Assembly (NCBI RefSeq): GCF_002831665.1
Contig: NZ_CP025118.1
Coordinates: 2,604,001-2,668,000, forward strand
Source: Lacinutrix sp. Bg11-31
Lineage (GTDB): Bacteria > Bacteroidota > Bacteroidia > Flavobacteriales > Flavobacteriaceae
Direction of reading: 5' to 3'
Length of the DNA: 64,000 bases
Made by a program: the position numbers and the translations under genes. Shown piece after piece: positions 16,857-22,988 of the stretch. The notes beneath the pieces were generated by a model that worked only from the letters and a program-made list of their open reading frames with translations, searched no databases and was not told the origin of the DNA. Numbering within the stretch: the first letter of the stretch is position 1; each line of letters opens with the position of its first letter.

Positions 16857-16897
16857 TCCTGTAATTAGAAATGACTTCTGTTTTTACAGAAAAAAAG

Positions 16898-17461
16898 ATG
16901 GCAAGAAAAAAAGAATATAACGAACATGAAGTAGTAGAAAAAGCAATGCACCTTTTTTGGCGCAATGGTTATGAAACTACATCTATGCAAATGCTTGAAA
17001 AAGAAATGGGCATTAACAAGTTCTCTATATATTCTAGTTTTGGCAACAAACATGGTTTATTTCTTGAAAGCTTAAAAAGCTATAAAAAGAAAGTAAATCT
17101 TATTTTAGAAAAGTTTAAAAATGCCGATAATGGTGTGGAAGATATTAAACAATTCTTTTACGATTCTATAAGTTCTAATTTCAAAAAAAATAGTGAGAAA
17201 GGCTGTTTTTTAACAAATACTTATAATGAGTTTTCAGACAATGAGGATGAGTTAATAAGGGAACACATGAATTCTTTTATGGATAATCTTAAACTATTAT
17301 TTATAGAAAAATTACAAAAGGATGACACTAGAGATGAAGCAACAGTAATAAAACAAGCAAATTATTTATTATTAGCGAAGCATGGTTTAGCTGCCGCAGC
17401 TAGAGTAAACAGTCCAAAAGAAATTGAAGATTATATTGAAATGACTTTTGTAAACATTTAG
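16898..17461 (+). CDS. TetR/AcrR-family transcriptional repressor
   Basis: The N-terminal helix-turn-helix is clear (HEVVEKAMHLFWRNGYETTS, then LEKEMGINKFSIYSSFGNKHGLF). The C-terminal ligand domain contains KGCFLTNTYNEFSD, as in the TetR subgroup related to YcdC/NemR-like regulators of electrophile stress, which is only a resemblance. I start at MARKKEYNE, as in homologues; an upstream in-frame ATG at 16871 would add nine residues. An operator overlaps its own -7 box and a perfect copy lies before the CMD gene 65 nt downstream, so it probably represses itself and the 17.5-19.8 kb genes. Confidence 0.88.
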   Translation: MARKKEYNEHEVVEKAMHLFWRNGYETTSMQMLEKEMGINKFSIYSSFGNKHGLFLESLKSYKKKVNLILEKFKNADNGVEDIKQFFYDSISSNFKKNSEKGCFLTNTYNEFSDNEDELIREHMNSFMDNLKLLFIEKLQKDDTRDEATVIKQANYLLLAKHGLAAAARVNSPKEIEDYIEMTFVNI

Positions 17462-17481
17462 ACCTTTTTTTTACAAAATAA

Positions 17482-17497
17482 CTAAACGAACGTTTAG
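17482..17497. promoter_or_regulatory. Predicted TetR operator upstream of the CMD gene
   Basis: CTAAACG-AA-CGTTTAG is a perfect 7-bp-arm inverted repeat 29 nt before the ATG at 17527. The same half-site occurs in the regulator's own promoter. No TAnnTTTG box is visible in the 65-bp gap. Confidence 0.65.
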
Positions 17498-17526
17498 ATA
17501 AAATAAATATTAAATTAAAAAAAATT

Positions 17527-18075
17527 ATGACAACATTAAAAGTTCACAACATCGAAACAGCACCAACAGATAGTAAACCACTTTTAGAGAATTCTCAAAA
17601 AGCATTTGGAATGATACCTGGTTTACACGGTGTATTAGCTGGAGCTCCAAAAACATTAGAAGCTTACCAAGTATTACATAAATTATTTACAGAGTCTTCA
17701 TTTAATGCAGAAGAACTAACTGTAGTATGGCAAACAATAAACGTAGAACATGCTTGTCATTACTGCGTACCTGCACATACAGGAATTGCAAAAATGATGA
17801 AAGTTGATGATGCTATTACTGAAGCATTACGTAACGAAACACCTCTTGAAGATTCTAAATTAGAAGCTTTACGTACATTTACTTTAACTGTTGTTCGTAA
17901 TCGTGGACACGTTTCTCAAGAAGATTTAACTGCTTTTTATAGCGCTGGTTACGGTGAGCAACAAGTACTAGAAATTATTTTAGCTGTATCTCAAAAAGTA
18001 ATTAGTAACTACACAAATCATATTGCAAATACACCTGTAGATGCACCTTTTCAAGCTTTTGCTTGGGAAAAATAA
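17527..18075 (+). CDS. Carboxymuconolactone decarboxylase-family (AhpD-like) protein
   Basis: The AhpD-like active-site pattern is present: EHACHYCVPAHTGIAKM gives Cys77-x-x-Cys80 and His84. In characterised relatives this site reduces peroxides through a relay thiol or acts on lactones; the CxxC favours a thiol role here. It has 182 residues and no signal peptide, so it is cytoplasmic. It follows the TetR gene behind a perfect operator and is separated from the next gene by a terminator-like hairpin, which would make it the most highly expressed gene of the set. A paralogue is at 20556-21113. Confidence 0.88.
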   Translation: MTTLKVHNIETAPTDSKPLLENSQKAFGMIPGLHGVLAGAPKTLEAYQVLHKLFTESSFNAEELTVVWQTINVEHACHYCVPAHTGIAKMMKVDDAITEALRNETPLEDSKLEALRTFTLTVVRNRGHVSQEDLTAFYSAGYGEQQVLEIILAVSQKVISNYTNHIANTPVDAPFQAFAWEK

Positions 18076-18077
18076 AT

Positions 18078-18098
18078 TGTAGTTTTGTGAAAACTACA
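18078..18098 (+). terminator. Hairpin directly after the CMD gene
   Basis: TGTAGTTTT-GTG-AAAACTACA is a perfect 9-bp hairpin just past the stop codon. No T run follows, so it may protect the 3' end instead of terminating. Confidence 0.45.
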
Positions 18099-18110
18099 TA
18101 TTAATTGTTG

Positions 18111-18148
18111 TGAGCCTTCTGTACTTTGTATGGGAGGCTTTTTTTTAA
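18111..18148 (+). terminator. Terminator or attenuator inside the TetR-linked gene set
   Basis: AGCCTTC and GGGAGGCT can pair across about 13 nt and are followed by eight T. It separates the CMD gene from the EthD-HAD-DsbA genes. Confidence 0.65.
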
Positions 18149-18166
18149 AACGTAAAATATATAATT

Positions 18167-18481
18167 ATGATAAAAGCATCTGTAATGTACCCAAGCGGTA
18201 AAGATGTAAAATTCGATGTAGATTATTACAAAAACAAACATTTACCAATGGTTACTAATGCTATTGGAGAAGCATTAAAAGGACTAGAATTAGATTTAGG
18301 ATTAGGCAGTAGAGTTCCTGGAGAACCTGCACCTTATGTTGCAATTGCACACTTAAAATTTGATGACTTAGACACTTTTAAAGCTTCATTTGCTCCACAC
18401 GTTGCATTATTTGCTGAAGATTTAAAGAATTATACTAATGTAAAAGGAGAACTACAAATTAGCGAATTAATAACATTTTAA
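18167..18481 (+). CDS. EthD-family protein
   Basis: A 104-residue ferredoxin-like (dimeric alpha/beta barrel) protein. The EthD pattern is seen in MIKASVMYPSGKD, DVDYYKNKHLPMV and the C-terminal PHVALFAEDLKNYTNV. Members of this family assist or catalyse oxidation or breakdown of aromatic and ether compounds; the substrate is unknown. The next gene begins 2 nt after its stop, so it is cotranscribed with the HAD gene. Confidence 0.85.
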   Translation: MIKASVMYPSGKDVKFDVDYYKNKHLPMVTNAIGEALKGLELDLGLGSRVPGEPAPYVAIAHLKFDDLDTFKASFAPHVALFAEDLKNYTNVKGELQISELITF

Positions 18482-18483
18482 AT

Positions 18484-19179
18484 ATGAAAAGTATAACCAT
18501 AAATAAACCCAAAGTTTTATTCTTCGATGTAAACGAAACACTTTTAGATCTTACCAAAATGAAAAAGCATGTTGGTAAAGCTTTAGGTGGCAAGGAAGAG
18601 TTATTGTCTTTATGGTTTACTACAATGCTGCATTACTCTTTAGTTACATCAGCTAGCGGACATTATAAACCTTTTGGACATATTGGAGCGGCAGCATTAC
18701 AAATGGTAGCAGCAAATAATAACATTACAATTTCCGAAGAAGAGGCACGTAAAGTTATAATAGAAGCTATGCAAAACTTACCTGCACATCCTGAAGTAAA
18801 AACGGCTTTAACTGAGCTTAAAAAAGCAGGATACACATTAGTTGCTTTTACAAACTCGTCTAACGAAGGTTTAAAAAAGCAATTTGAAAATGCAGGATTA
18901 ACCGATTATTTTGACGAAAGACTTAGTGTTGAAGACTCCGGGAAATTTAAACCATTTACCAACACTTATGTTTGGGGAGCAAACAAAATGGGTGTTAAAC
19001 TGGAAGAGTGTATGCTAATTGCAGCACACGGTTGGGATGTTGCTGGTGCACTTTGGGCTGGCTGGAGAGCTGCTTTTGTAAGCAGACCTGGACAACAAAT
19101 ATTTCCATTAGCGCCAAAAACAGAAATTGAAGAATCAGACTTAAAAAAAGTAGCAGATATTCTTGTTACCTATAAATAA
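18484..19179 (+). CDS. Haloacid dehalogenase type II-like HAD hydrolase
   Basis: The nucleophile motif is FFDVNETLLD (Asp15), as in L-2-haloacid dehalogenases. FTNSSNEG supplies the motif II Ser/Thr, SGKFKPFTNTY the motif III Lys, and AAHGWDVAGALWAG the motif IV region. The wording favours the dehalogenase-like branch, but phosphatase or another C-Cl/C-O hydrolysis cannot be excluded. It lies 2 nt after the EthD gene and 8 nt before the DsbA-like gene, consistent with an operon for dealing with small electrophiles. Confidence 0.85.
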   Translation: MKSITINKPKVLFFDVNETLLDLTKMKKHVGKALGGKEELLSLWFTTMLHYSLVTSASGHYKPFGHIGAAALQMVAANNNITISEEEARKVIIEAMQNLPAHPEVKTALTELKKAGYTLVAFTNSSNEGLKKQFENAGLTDYFDERLSVEDSGKFKPFTNTYVWGANKMGVKLEECMLIAAHGWDVAGALWAGWRAAFVSRPGQQIFPLAPKTEIEESDLKKVADILVTYK

Positions 19180-19187
19180 ATTGTAAA

Positions 19188-19832
19188 ATGAAAGAAAAAT
19201 TAAAAATAGATATCGTTTCAGATGTTGTTTGTCCATGGTGCACCATTGGATATAAGCGTTTAGAAAAAGCAATACAAGAACTTGGTGTTCAAGATCAAGT
19301 AGAAATAGAATGGCAACCGTTTGAATTAAATCCAAACATGCCTGCCGAAGGACAGAATGTAGACGAGCATATTACAAAAAAATATGGATCTACTCCAGAG
19401 CAGCAAAAGGAATCTAAACAACACATGACCGAAGCTGGAGAAGAGCTTGGTTTTACCTTCGATTATTTTGATGACATGCGTATGGTAAATACTTTTGAGG
19501 CTCATATTTTATTAGACTATGCTAAAGCATTCGACAAGCAAACCGATTTAAAAATGACTTTAACAAAAGCATTTTTTAGTGACCGTAAAGATGTTTCTAA
19601 AAGAGGCATTTTAAAAGAAGCTTTGGAAACTGTTGGTTTAAATGCTGAAGAAGGTTTAGCTAAGTTAGATAACGAAGAAGCACAAAAAGAAGTAAGAAGT
19701 AAACAAAACTATTGGAAAAGTTTAGGTGTAAACTCTGTACCAACTATTGTTTTTAATAGAAAAAGTGCAGTAACTGGTGCGCAACCTGTAGATACTTTTA
19801 AGCAAGTACTTTCAGAATTAATTACTGAATAA
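19188..19832 (+). CDS. DsbA-family (FrnE-like) oxidoreductase
   Basis: A thioredoxin fold with a large helical insertion. CPWC (Cys15-Cys18) is in DVVCPWCTIG and the cis-Pro is in SVPTIVFN. No signal peptide is present, so it is a cytoplasmic FrnE-like protein, not periplasmic DsbA. FrnE-type proteins are linked to polyketide chemistry and to oxidative-stress tolerance. It is the last gene of the EthD-HAD-DsbA unit and is followed by a family 2 repeat and a bidirectional terminator. Confidence 0.9.
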   Translation: MKEKLKIDIVSDVVCPWCTIGYKRLEKAIQELGVQDQVEIEWQPFELNPNMPAEGQNVDEHITKKYGSTPEQQKESKQHMTEAGEELGFTFDYFDDMRMVNTFEAHILLDYAKAFDKQTDLKMTLTKAFFSDRKDVSKRGILKEALETVGLNAEEGLAKLDNEEAQKEVRSKQNYWKSLGVNSVPTIVFNRKSAVTGAQPVDTFKQVLSELITE

Positions 19833-20041: not shown

Positions 20042-20422
20042 CTATTCTACTACTAAAGTATATTCTGGTGTTTTGTTAAAAGGACAGAAATATGTGTATG
20101 TTCCTTTTGTAAGTGTTACTTCTTTTGAAGATTCTGTTTTACCATGCTTTACCATTTGAGATACATAAGCATCTGCAATGTGGTTTTTAGCATCTGCTCC
20201 ATCTTTACCAGCTTCAATTAATACTAAACCTACCTCTGGTGCTGCATTTGTGTTTGTTAAATTAAACACGTAAACACCTTCAGATACTGTTAATGCTTTT
20301 TGTGTAAACTCTCCAGCAGTTTGCTCTAATGAGATTGTTTTTACTGCTTTACTCATTTTGTCTTGTGCTCCAGATACAAATGTGAAGGCTACTGAAAATA
20401 CTGCTAATACTAAATTTTTCAT
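20042..20422 (-). CDS. Exported cupredoxin-like protein without a full copper site
   Basis: A signal peptide (ending SGAQ) precedes an about 105-residue Greek-key beta domain. The C-terminal GTYTYFCPFNKTPEYTLVV resembles the copper loop of plastocyanin/azurin (Y-x-C-x-x-x-x), but the second His and the Met of that loop are absent, so a type 1 copper site is unlikely. It is downstream of the second CMD gene, separated by a repeat, and could be cotranscribed. A structural or adhesion role is possible. Confidence 0.65.
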   Translation of the reverse strand: MKNLVLAVFSVAFTFVSGAQDKMSKAVKTISLEQTAGEFTQKALTVSEGVYVFNLTNTNAAPEVGLVLIEAGKDGADAKNHIADAYVSQMVKHGKTESSKEVTLTKGTYTYFCPFNKTPEYTLVVE

Positions 20423-20468: not shown

Positions 20469-20550
20469 TTTGTTTGAGTTGAGATTTCGCAAAATATCAA
20501 GAGTTTCTCGATACGCTTTTTTCATGCTTCAAAAACCACTCGAAATGACA
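20469..20550. repeat. Composite family 1 repeat (degenerate)
   Basis: A decayed inverted half (TTGTTTGAGTTGAG to CAAGAG) faces a direct half (GTTTCTCGATACG to CACTCGAAATGACA). It fills the gap between the CMD and cupredoxin-like genes. Confidence 0.7.
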
Positions 20551-20555
20551 CGTTA

Positions 20556-21113
20556 TTATTGTGCTACTGTAAACTTTCCTGCTTCTACAGACGGAAAATC
20601 CACTTCTGTTTCTGCAATATGGTTTACATAGTTTGTTAATGTGTTAGACACAACATTAAGTACAATTTCTAATATTTCGCCATCGTTAAAACCGGCAGCT
20701 TTTACTTCGCTAATTGCTTCTGTAGATACTTGTCCGCGATTTAATGTTACAGCCTGTGCAAATTGTAATCCTGCTTGTGCTTTGTTGTCGTTTGCAAAAC
20801 CTTTACGACTTTGTTCTGTTTGTTCTTCTGTTAAGCCATTCATTTTACCAATAGCTGTGTGTGCAGATAAACAGTAGTTACATGAGTTTGTTTCTGCAAT
20901 TGCTAATGCTAATTGTTCACGGTATTTGTTTGTAAATTCTCCGCTTGCTGTTAATTCTCCTAAACTTAAATACGTTTGTAATGTTGCTGGAGAATTACCA
21001 AATACTTTAATAAGGTTTGGTATAAAACCTAACTTCTTTTGTACTGCGTTAAATAAATCTTTAGCTTTTCCTGTTGTTGTTTCTGGATTTAATGTTTTAA
21101 TTCTTGTGCTCAT
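20556..21113 (-). CDS. Carboxymuconolactone decarboxylase-family (AhpD-like) protein, second copy
   Basis: The thiol site SCNYCLSAHTAIGKM gives Cys78-x-x-Cys81 and His85. The 185 residues align in length and layout with the gene at 17527-18075, but the two differ clearly in sequence, so this is an old paralogue pair. It is cytoplasmic. Its mRNA probably starts at the promoter at 21385-21441, before the 35-residue CxxC gene; a palindromic family 1 repeat separates it from that small gene. Peroxide or hydroperoxide reduction coupled to the nearby thioredoxin is a reasonable inference. Confidence 0.88.
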   Translation of the reverse strand: MSTRIKTLNPETTTGKAKDLFNAVQKKLGFIPNLIKVFGNSPATLQTYLSLGELTASGEFTNKYREQLALAIAETNSCNYCLSAHTAIGKMNGLTEEQTEQSRKGFANDNKAQAGLQFAQAVTLNRGQVSTEAISEVKAAGFNDGEILEIVLNVVSNTLTNYVNHIAETEVDFPSVEAGKFTVAQ

Positions 21114-21138: not shown

Positions 21139-21225
21139 TGTCTGTTCGAGTTGAGGCTTTTTAAACGAAGTATCGAAAACTTCTCGATACAATTTTTTCA
21201 TGCTTCAAAAATTACTCGAAGTGAC
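21139..21225. repeat. Composite family 1 repeat
   Basis: The inverted half (TGTCTGTTCGAGTTGAG to GTATCGAAAAC) and direct half (TTCTCGATAC to ACTCGAAGTGACA) form one large dyad centred near 21180. It lies inside the predicted mini-protein/CMD transcript. Confidence 0.85.
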
Positions 21226-21237
21226 ATTTTGTTATTA

Positions 21238-21345
21238 TTATTTATTTTCTTTTGGGCATTCGCATAATTGTTGTTCTGGCTTTTGCTCGTTATATGTTTG
21301 ATATCCCCAACAATTTGGACATTGTTTGTTTTCTGTTGTTTTCAT
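21238..21345 (-). CDS. 35-residue cysteine-rich mini-protein
   Basis: The reading frame begins ATG (21343-21345) and ends TAA. It encodes KQCPNCWGYQTYNE near the N-terminus (CPNC at residues 9-12) and CECP near the C-terminus (Cys28, Cys30), a pattern fit for one zinc or a redox pair. Support comes from context: a -7 box and an upstream element stand exactly as they do before trxA, with the same 39-nt gap between box and ATG. I recall similar short CPNCWG proteins in flavobacteria, but cannot check. It lies in a thioredoxin-CMD neighbourhood, so a thiol role is plausible. Confidence 0.65.
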   Translation of the reverse strand: MKTTENKQCPNCWGYQTYNEQKPEQQLCECPKENK

Positions 21346-21384: not shown

Positions 21385-21441
21385 CAAAGATGCGACGAGA
21401 ACTTGCCTTTAAAAATGGACAAAAGTTCCTTATGCATGGAC
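21385..21441 (-). promoter_or_regulatory. Promoter of mini-protein/CMD unit with AraC-type element
   Basis: On the minus strand GTCCATGCATAAGGAAC begins at 21441, TGTCCA recurs 20-21 bp later, and 49 nt separate the first base from the -7 box CATCTTTG (21392-21385). The spaced GTCCA repeats are on one helix face, typical of AraC-family sites. The mini-protein ATG is 39 nt after the box. Confidence 0.65.
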
Positions 21442-21450
21442 AGCCCGTTT

Positions 21451-21780
21451 TTATTGGGCTACAGCCACTTCTAACTCGTCTATTTTTAATCTAAGCTCTC
21501 TTTCTGTTATTAAGCCTGTGTGTTTATCTACTACTTTTCCTTCTTGAAAAAATACAAGTGTTGGAATACTTCTTACATTAAAGTATGCTGCTAAATCCTT
21601 ATTTTGATCTACGTTTACTTTTTTAATAATAACATCGTCGTTTAATTCTTCGGCTAATTTGTGAATGGTTGGTAATAATGTTTGACACGGTCCACACCAG
21701 TCTGCATAAAAATCTAATACTACTTTTTTATTATTTAGTACTGTGCTTTTAAAGTCTGCTTGATTTAGTTGAATCTCCAT
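21451..21780 (-). CDS. trxA: Thioredoxin
   Basis: A 109-residue thioredoxin with the classical site DWCGPC (Cys29, Cys32) and cis-Pro in RSIPTLVFF. It has no signal peptide and works in the cytoplasm as a general disulfide reductant. It has its own promoter block (21820-21876), an almost exact copy of the block before the mini-protein gene, so it is probably induced together with it. It is likely a stress-linked paralogue, not the only thioredoxin of the cell, which is inference. Confidence 0.93.
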   Translation of the reverse strand: MEIQLNQADFKSTVLNNKKVVLDFYADWCGPCQTLLPTIHKLAEELNDDVIIKKVNVDQNKDLAAYFNVRSIPTLVFFQEGKVVDKHTGLITERELRLKIDELEVAVAQ

Positions 21781-21819
21781 ATGTTCTATAATTTTAGTGT
21801 TGTTGTTTTAATTATAGTG

Positions 21820-21876
21820 CAAAGATGCTCTGTAAGTGCCTAGTAATAAATAGACAAAGGTTCCTTATACTTGGAC
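21820..21876 (-). promoter_or_regulatory. trxA promoter with AraC-type element
   Basis: On the minus strand GTCCAAGTATAAGGAAC starts at 21876, TTTGTCTA follows, and CATCTTTG (21827-21820) stands 49 nt downstream of the first base. The box-to-ATG distance is 39 nt. Both spacings equal those of 21385-21441. Confidence 0.65.
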
Positions 21877-21922
21877 TTGCCTATTTTTATTGGGTTTTAT
21901 TGGGTTTAGAACTGGTAATTAT

Positions 21923-22085
21923 AGCGTGAAGGATGGAAGTGGCATCCTTTTTTTAAAGAAATACCATTAATAGAAAGGTAATTGTACTGCATTGGAAAGT
22001 TGCTAAAATAGATTCAGCTTGAAAAAAAAGATATAACGTACAGCCTGACCAAAACTTGGCTTTTTGCGAGTTTTGGGCACGCCAT
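21923..22085. repeat. Interspersed repeat family 3, copy A (expanded)
   Basis: The left part contains AGCGTGAAGGATGGAAGTGG and CATCC plus a T run. The right part is AAAAAAAAGATATAACGTA, then CAGCCTGACC and a GGCACGCC end. About 60 extra nt separate the halves compared with the copy at 42956-43043. The rest of the 368-bp trxA-araC gap holds the trxA promoter and a family 5 hairpin. Confidence 0.7.
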
Positions 22086-22148: not shown

Positions 22149-22988
22149 CTAATAGTCTTTTCTAAATTGTAATGGAGACTTTGTGGTTGCTTTGGTGAAA
22201 AAACGACTGAAGTATGCCGAGTCATTAAAACCAAGGTCGTAAGCAATTTGTTTTACGGCTTCGTCTGTATAGATAAGTTGGCGCTTTGCTTCTAGGACAA
22301 TTCGGTTTTTAATAAAATCACTTGGTGTTTCTGCGCCTACTTTTTGAAAGTTTTTGGTCAACGATTTTGGTGATACTGCTAACCTATTTGCATAGTCTGT
22401 TACAGAGTGCAGCGTTTTATAGTTTTGCTCTACTAGTGTGCTAAAGTCTTTAAAGAGTTTAGTTTCTATGTCGGTTTTTATAGGATGATGTTCTTTTTGT
22501 ATGCGTACCGAATGGATAATAAATTGCTTTAAATAGGTTTGCAACATATCGTACTGGGCGGTTTCGGTGTTTTTGAATTCCTCGATAAGGCTTTCTAATA
22601 TAAAACTAAGTTTTTTAGTATCGTTTTCGCATGGTTTTACAAAAGGTGTTTCGTAGACATTATTAAAGAGCACACCGTTACAGGCAACTTCTTTATCGTG
22701 TGTTTGTATGCAATAGAAGTCTTTAACAAAGGTGATTTTATAGGCTTCTTTTATTTTTTCGGAATCTACAGAGAATACTTGACCAGGTGATAGAAAGAAC
22801 AATACATTCTCTTTAAAAGAGTAGCTTTTAAAATCTATGTTATAGGTCCCTACTCCTTCTTTAATCCAATAAATACTGTAGACATCTACTTGCTCTGGTT
22901 TATTGACTACGCAGGCTTTTTCGAATTGCACGACGCTTAACGAAAAGAGATCTTTATAGGTATGTACTGTTATGTCTTGTATTGCCAT
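22149..22988 (-). CDS. AraC-family transcriptional regulator
   Basis: Residues from about 185 to 279 hold the two helix-turn-helix motifs of the family; the second is very clear (AVKQIAYDLGFNDSAYFSRFF, with KSPLQFRKDY at the end). The N-terminal part has cupin-like strands (YWIKEGVGTYNIDF, LFFLSPGQVF) and should sense a small ligand. It lies 4 nt after brnQ in the same operon. The tandem half-sites at 21385-21441 and 21820-21876, found on the next two promoters, are its most likely targets; this link is inference from position and site geometry. Confidence 0.9.
   Translation of the reverse strand: MAIQDITVHTYKDLFSLSVVQFEKACVVNKPEQVDVYSIYWIKEGVGTYNIDFKSYSFKENVLFFLSPGQVFSVDSEKIKEAYKITFVKDFYCIQTHDKEVACNGVLFNNVYETPFVKPCENDTKKLSFILESLIEEFKNTETAQYDMLQTYLKQFIIHSVRIQKEHHPIKTDIETKLFKDFSTLVEQNYKTLHSVTDYANRLAVSPKSLTKNFQKVGAETPSDFIKNRIVLEAKRQLIYTDEAVKQIAYDLGFNDSAYFSRFFTKATTKSPLQFRKDY

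Follow-up and report, generated by a model that had tools for sequence, protein, structure and literature searches.

A conserved direct-repeat element, probably an activator site and promoter for a neighbouring AraC-type protein, at a redox locus of Lacinutrix sp. Bg11-31

The locus and its genes

The window considered here is a stretch of 64,000 nucleotides of the genome of Lacinutrix sp. Bg11-31, a marine flavobacterium, and on its minus strand lie in order an araC-type gene, a first promoter block, a thioredoxin gene, a second block and then genes for a mini-protein, an AhpD-like CMD protein and a cupredoxin-like protein. The AraC-type regulator (22149..22988, minus strand) scores above cutoff against PF12833 (E 2.1e-21) and PF00165 (E 2.5e-08), which give it the C-terminal double helix-turn-helix of AraC/XylS proteins. 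Its predicted structure (mean pLDDT 81.4) has strands between residues 4 and 87 followed by helices, as in the N-terminal beta-rich sensor domain of that family, and it has near full-length sequence matches in the PDB to ToxT-type entries.

The thioredoxin (21451..21780, minus strand) has a WCGPC centre and matches PF00085, with TIGR01068 above cutoff, it is accompanied elsewhere in the genome by six other thioredoxin matches at E <= 1e-5, the best of them 38% identical, and the RNA hairpin at the end of its gene is not notable (z -1.17). The mini-protein (21238..21345, minus strand) has only 35 amino acids, including the motif CPNCWGYQ, and found no match in Pfam or NCBIfam, its cysteines are conserved, with the first CxxC present in all 61 distinct relatives and the later cysteines in 49 and 38 of the 61. 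The CMD protein (20556..21113, minus strand; PF02627, with TIGR00778 above cutoff and TIGR01926 below) has the C-x2-C-x3-H centre of AhpD-like CMD proteins, the Cys, Cys and His being kept in 74 of 76 relatives. Last in the operon is the cupredoxin-like protein (20042..20422, minus strand; PF13473, 28.6 bits where the cutoff is 27), in which H81 and C113 are found in 70 of 70 relatives.

Several other features lie close by. A 69-nt repeat, 81% identical between its copies, flanks the CMD gene in both operon gaps (20492-20560 and 21168-21236), and a 54-nt pattern taken from the second copy matched the genome once at up to three mismatches, at that copy itself. Between araC and the first promoter a Flavo-1 RNA (RF01705, 50.7 bits, gathering score 42) lies on the plus strand at 21919-22054. 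Convergent with the CMD operon is a second redox-looking cluster (16871-19832, plus strand) which has no copy of the element described below, and which encodes a TetR-type regulator, an EthD-domain protein, a DsbA-type protein, a protein without a Pfam match that resembles CMD proteins on inspection, and what is presumably a HAD-like protein.

Twin promoter blocks

The two blocks share a 29-nt element, two letters longer than the 27 nt of the original prediction. Before the thioredoxin gene (promoter 1) the element occupies 21848..21876 of the minus strand (GTCCAAGTATAAGGAACCTTTGTCTATTT, read 21876-21848), with a GTCCA half-site at 21876-21872 and a degenerate one, GTCTA, 21 bp away at 21855-21851, and is followed by a -7-like box, CATCTTTG, at 21820..21827. 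Before the mini-protein and CMD genes (promoter 2) it occupies 21413..21441 of the same strand (GTCCATGCATAAGGAACTTTTGTCCATTT, read 21441-21413), with both half-sites reading GTCCA (21441-21437 and 21420-21416), again 21 bp apart, and with the same box at 21385..21392. The twin geometry that had been predicted is exact, with 49 nt from the first base of GTCCA to the start of CATCTTTG (at 21827 and 21392) and 39 nt from the end of the box to the ATG (21780 for thioredoxin, 21345 for the mini-protein) at both promoters.

A pattern of the element, allowing up to three mismatches, matched the window at these two sites and nowhere else, and matched none of 100 shuffled windows, although this comparison is post hoc, and as the pattern came from its own two sites the real test of the element is conservation. 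No third copy was found in the 3.67-Mb genome at up to three mismatches and the reversed pattern gave 0 matches, so the regulon looks, from the sequence, to be local and confined to its own locus. When the genome was scanned for the proximal half-site together with the -7 box, tolerating up to three mismatches, there were 59 matches, and the reversed control had 63; with no more than two tolerated, the scan returned the two known sites and positions 272929 and 3558133. A search of a plasmid collection gave no match.

Conservation of the element and its spacing

A scan of named genomes for the CMD protein gave 156 relatives, of which the best 80 were kept as loci. The element, with at least 17 of its 22 defined letters and with its box at 49 nt, lies within 1300 nt upstream of CMD in 80 of the 80 loci (the best 80 of 156), in 76 of them as a single copy, thus the loss of the element before homologues of trxA and CMD, which would have spoken against the original prediction, is not what is seen. 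The fetched loci together contain 106 distinct sites with a score of 16/22 or more, and the 94 that have a box anywhere at offsets 40-54 all have it at 49. The remaining 12 sites are boxless over those offsets, ten of them chance-like by eye and two real-looking, the first copy in L006 and a copy before the cupredoxin gene in L105. Since these loci and sites are related by descent, their counts do not represent independent events.

The defined columns of the element hold 1.27-2.0 bits, with position 17 lower at 0.85, its variable middle holds 0.3-1.0 bits, and the columns of the upstream flank mostly fall below 0.5 bits apart from an A-rich patch of up to 0.86. The two equal spacings had been taken together as a sign of selection, and this can be kept for one of them. 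As the box stands at 49 nt in all 80 CMD loci (best 80 of 156), that distance is a fixed property of the promoter. The distance from box to ATG varies from 18 to 228 across the 86 sites, of 93, with an identified first gene; six of them show 39, including both in the window, so the equal 39-nt leaders weigh little.

The element as operator and promoter

In the element the GTCCA half-sites are repeated directly, with a period of 21 bp. Identity between half-sites is 0.87 at a shift of 21 and at most 0.41 at all other shifts from 8 to 39 (six distal positions, 93 sites), and an inverted-repeat operator was rejected with a best score of 6.2 against 11.4 for the direct repeat. In a class II AraC-type operator the regulator binds two direct half-sites spaced by about two turns of the helix, the proximal of which overlaps the upstream promoter element, and the spacing seen over these 93 sites is that of such an operator.

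In Flavobacterium johnsoniae the -7 element is described as covering -12 to -5 and having a nearly invariant T at -12, transcription starting 4-5 nt beyond it (PMC6847099), and the same position of the box is described for F. psychrophilum (PMC9723704). By the F. johnsoniae ruler the element would cover about -61 to -33, with its proximal half-site reaching the -33 region. The box resembles the Bacteroidota primary sigma promoters described there (TTTG / TAHHTTTG; PMC6847099) in its A at -11 and TTTG at -8 to -5, but here C replaces the nearly invariant T at -12 and the -33 position would fall inside the operator. Among 96 sites scoring at least 18, AnnTTTG is kept in 93 and the letter at -12 is C, not T, in 92. 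Because of this -7 box with C at -12 the promoter looks like an activator-dependent one.

Co-occurrence with the AraC-type gene

An ortholog of the AraC-type protein (at least 60% identity) is encoded in the fetched DNA of 74 of the 80 loci (best 80 of 156), and among the six others a contig edge is 354-625 nt away in four, while in two (L090 and L093) the 6 kb upstream contain no AraC gene. The pairing was followed through 537 distinct genomes (149 from the family, 13 from the genus and 395 from the order), of which 26 have the ortholog, and it is those 26 that also have the element when up to two mismatches are allowed. The orthologs in these 26 are 58-100% identical to the window's protein, with the next matches at 45% or less in the family sample. 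None of the 511 genomes lacking the ortholog has a match as close as that; three of them (G093, G037 and G061) have matches with three mismatches, and these have no box. A dedicated pair should be jointly present and jointly absent even within one genus, and in the genus sample both are present in 10 of 13 genomes and neither in 3, two of these three being 84-89% complete. In 25 of the 26 genomes element and gene share a contig and are no more than about 2 kb apart; in the other (G138) they sit on separate contigs, each at the end or close to it. The ortholog and the element are also paired in three genomes whose fetched locus is without CMD (G002, G033 and G077).

These counts are to be read with care, as relatedness inflates the statistics and the co-occurrence is in part shared descent. 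The pattern used was tuned on loci that come partly from the same 149 genomes (G002, G033, G077 and G138 were not scored there), genomes of the genus and order samples may be of the same species as loci of the CMD scan, and the AraC searches of those two samples cover relatives within limits of 1e-70 and 1e-80. Even so, the matching distribution in 26 of 537 genomes, the adjacency and the 21-bp direct repeat support what was originally predicted, that the element would be a regulator site and promoter bound by the adjoining AraC-type protein.

Paralogs of the regulator, 35-41% identical to it, adjoin another element, RGGAAAAATTGACA-N7-RGG. In 13 of the 149 family genomes this lies in tandem on one strand beside the paralog, the copies being 267-271 nt apart (607 in G076), although the pattern is a loose one that gives single matches, and reversed-control matches, elsewhere. 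In the four such loci that were read, the first block stands before a 57-58-aa ORF that contains Cys and His and is unlike the window's mini-protein, and the second before a CMD-cupredoxin pair. There are 42 distinct sites, of which 28 have a [CT]AnnTTTG[CT] box, at 58 nt in all 28, and 14 do not; the first block of L026, counted among the unboxed, has GATCTTTG at 58. Among 28 blocks selected for having C, T or G at -12, the letter is C in 93%. The 21-bp repeat is less pronounced than in the window's element, at 0.56 with the next best shift at 0.45, and is partly built into the pattern used for fetching. With tandem operators in the paralog system as well, tandem promoters are a recurring design.

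Further operator variants were seen in passing. L025, L157 and L173 have GGGAAAAATTGCCAACTCCTCGGG or a sequence differing from it by at most two letters, and there too the -7 box stands at 58. The AraC paralog loci L018, L019, L021, L022 and L024 have CCAT-N3, 19 nt and then a -7-like box, which is a lead only since the pattern itself required that spacing and was uncontrolled; the next gene in L024 is presumably OsmC-like.

Genes under the element

At 45 of 93 sites the element is followed by mini-protein, CMD and cupredoxin, the commonest order, and a further small gene, which we take to be NTF2-like, is present at 11. The cupredoxin-like gene is found in 74 of the 80 loci and thioredoxin in 7 (best 80 of 156). 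Where CMD is missing from the fetched locus, the element is followed by cupredoxin in G002, by mini-protein and cupredoxin in G033, and in G077 by a different enzyme, presumably a cysteine hydrolase.

The window's arrangement, in which one block precedes thioredoxin and a second precedes mini-protein and CMD, is found in Lacinutrix sp. Bg11-31 and L033-L035, in a Lutibacter locus (L096) and in two genomes of another genus (G408 and G453). Elsewhere the order is thioredoxin, mini-protein, CMD (L103), mini-protein, thioredoxin, CMD (L051), or thioredoxin and CMD behind a gene that we take to be DoxX-like (L108). Second copies of the element also precede other genes, the cupredoxin gene in L100 and L106, where they are boxed, and in L105, where there is no good box, and a DoxX-like gene in G059, again without a good -7 box and with a hairpin-and-T-run before the next block. 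A tree of ten thioredoxin sequences is compatible with one or several gains of the gene.

The core of the regulon looks to be mini-protein, CMD and cupredoxin, with thioredoxin an occasional recruit that in three lineages stands under a second copy of the element. Given these second copies and the varied positions of thioredoxin, genes seem to have come under the element either through local duplication of the block or by inserting into the operon. The single regulon of thioredoxin, CxxC mini-protein and CMD that was originally predicted is supported for its mini-protein and CMD core, and has to be amended in that it omitted cupredoxin and counted in a thioredoxin present at 7 of the 80 loci (best 80 of 156). 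Branched-chain amino-acid stress, which had been put forward among the conditions to be tried, is supported by nothing more than a neighbouring branched-chain amino acid transporter gene. As a lead only for membership of the system, the Zobellia CMD gene ZGAL_1598 is described as induced on fresh kelp (PMC9296495).

Proposed regulation

It is likely, from the sequence comparisons above, that the block is an activator site and promoter for the neighbouring AraC-type protein. An oxidant or electrophile would trigger this protein by way of its sensor cysteines. It would then bind the block through the two GTCCA half-sites that form a 21-bp direct repeat at about -61 to -33 from the putative start, and recruit RNA polymerase to an intrinsically weak promoter, whose -7 box is of the Bacteroidota type, has an unusual C at -12 and keeps a fixed distance from the half-sites. 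At block 2 this would switch on the mini-protein, the AhpD-like CMD protein and the cupredoxin, and at the second copy in this genome a dedicated thioredoxin. The degenerate proximal half-site of promoter 1 counts against this reading, as do the two loci (L090 and L093) without an AraC gene in 6 kb upstream and the want of a cysteine opposite RclR Cys89.

C93 and C103 are present in all of 80 full-length orthologs (80 distinct of 117) and C26 in 79, and one alignment (A1) of 26 sequences, paralogs among them, shows no variation at C93, H97 or C103; H97 is missing in L028, one of 17 proteins (L016-L032), which lies outside that alignment. In the predicted structure the loop containing C26 (residues 23-26) and the one beside C93 (residues 94-97) have a pLDDT below 50. 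Against E. coli RclR the protein gives a full-length profile match in hhalign (probability 82.8%), which sets C26 opposite RclR C21 and C93 opposite C86, and has nothing opposite C89. Conserved sensor cysteines together with a thiol-redox cargo suggest an oxidant or electrophile as trigger, and our best guess is a thiol oxidant or electrophile such as a reactive halogen or an organic hydroperoxide.

The main alternative for the signal, a variant of the same reading rather than a competitor to it, is that C93-x3-H97-x5-C103 binds a metal such as copper or zinc and serves a metal-stress response. This would fit the invariance of all three residues in A1 and a cupredoxin-like gene at 74 of 80 loci (best 80 of 156), but it is doubtful given that H97 is absent from L028, that the invariant candidates for copper ligands in the cupredoxin are one Cys and one His, that C26 is nearly invariant too and that CMD and thioredoxin point to thiol chemistry. 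The protein may also sense a small molecule. Leaving the signal aside, the AraC-type protein might repress here and be released by the signal, as a protein bound at a half-site reaching the -33 region could block the polymerase; this is unlikely, as the -7 box with C at -12 fits a promoter dependent on an activator and the parallel protein RclR is described as an activator (PMC7464077, PMC7950407). It is also quite improbable that another regulator binds the element, or that it is the promoter of a specialised sigma factor, with AraC a mere neighbour. The non-consensus C at -12 and the two loci of 80 (best 80 of 156) with no AraC gene within 6 kb upstream would allow this, yet it has to contend with the finding that ortholog and element coincide in 26 of 537 genomes, including those CMD-less in the fetched locus, with the direct-repeat structure and with the AraC paralog that lies beside a different operator in 13 genomes. 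That the blocks are a recent duplication which carried a promoter along without any regulator site is scarcely credible, since the 435 nt between the copies and the shared 39-nt leaders would suit it but it is contradicted already by the conservation across genomes (80 of 80 loci, best 80 of 156, 76 of them single-copy upstream of CMD), by filler that has diverged where the element has not and by second copies that recur in other lineages.

If the block does serve as activator site and promoter for the AraC-type protein, it offers a concrete regulator-operator pair with a fixed promoter geometry in Bacteroidota, and would tie one sensor to thioredoxin, to an AhpD-like enzyme and to a conserved but unnamed CxxC mini-protein, whose function thereby becomes testable. 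The second copies of the block in several lineages point to one route by which small regulons may gain genes. More tentatively, and with rather less than even confidence, there may be a flavobacterial family of AraC-type thiol sensors with private operators and one grammar, that is 21-bp direct repeats reaching the -33 region, a fixed distance and a -7 box with C at -12. Such a family could grow by local duplication of operator and promoter, repeatedly giving genes for thioredoxin, DoxX-like proteins, cupredoxin or mini-protein a control of their own, and might defend marine bacteria against reactive halogens and organic oxidants. Among the matches listed in open-licence literature, judged by title and the start of the abstract, there was no description of this system.

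Comparison with known systems

In the 21-bp period of its direct half-sites the block is like the operator of E. coli AraC at araBAD (I1 and I2), where the proximal half-site reaches the upstream promoter element, as that of the block would on the F. johnsoniae ruler. It differs in the sequence of its half-sites, in its sigma factor and in having no sugar genes, and the window's blocks give no sign of looping as in E. coli AraC.

The closest functional parallel, by analogy, is RclR-RclX of Pseudomonas aeruginosa. RclR is described as an AraC-family activator responding to HOCl and HOSCN in P. aeruginosa and E. coli (PMC7950407, PMC7464077), and in P. aeruginosa it activates the adjacent AhpD-like gene under both oxidants (PMC7950407), so that in both systems an AraC-family regulator lies beside an AhpD-like gene. 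Both regulators have cysteines in the N-terminal domain, although of the redox pair described for RclR, Cys21 and Cys89 (PMC7464077), only Cys21 is aligned with a cysteine of the window's protein, C26. The system described here also differs in its Bacteroidota promoter and in its extra cargo of mini-protein, cupredoxin and sometimes thioredoxin.
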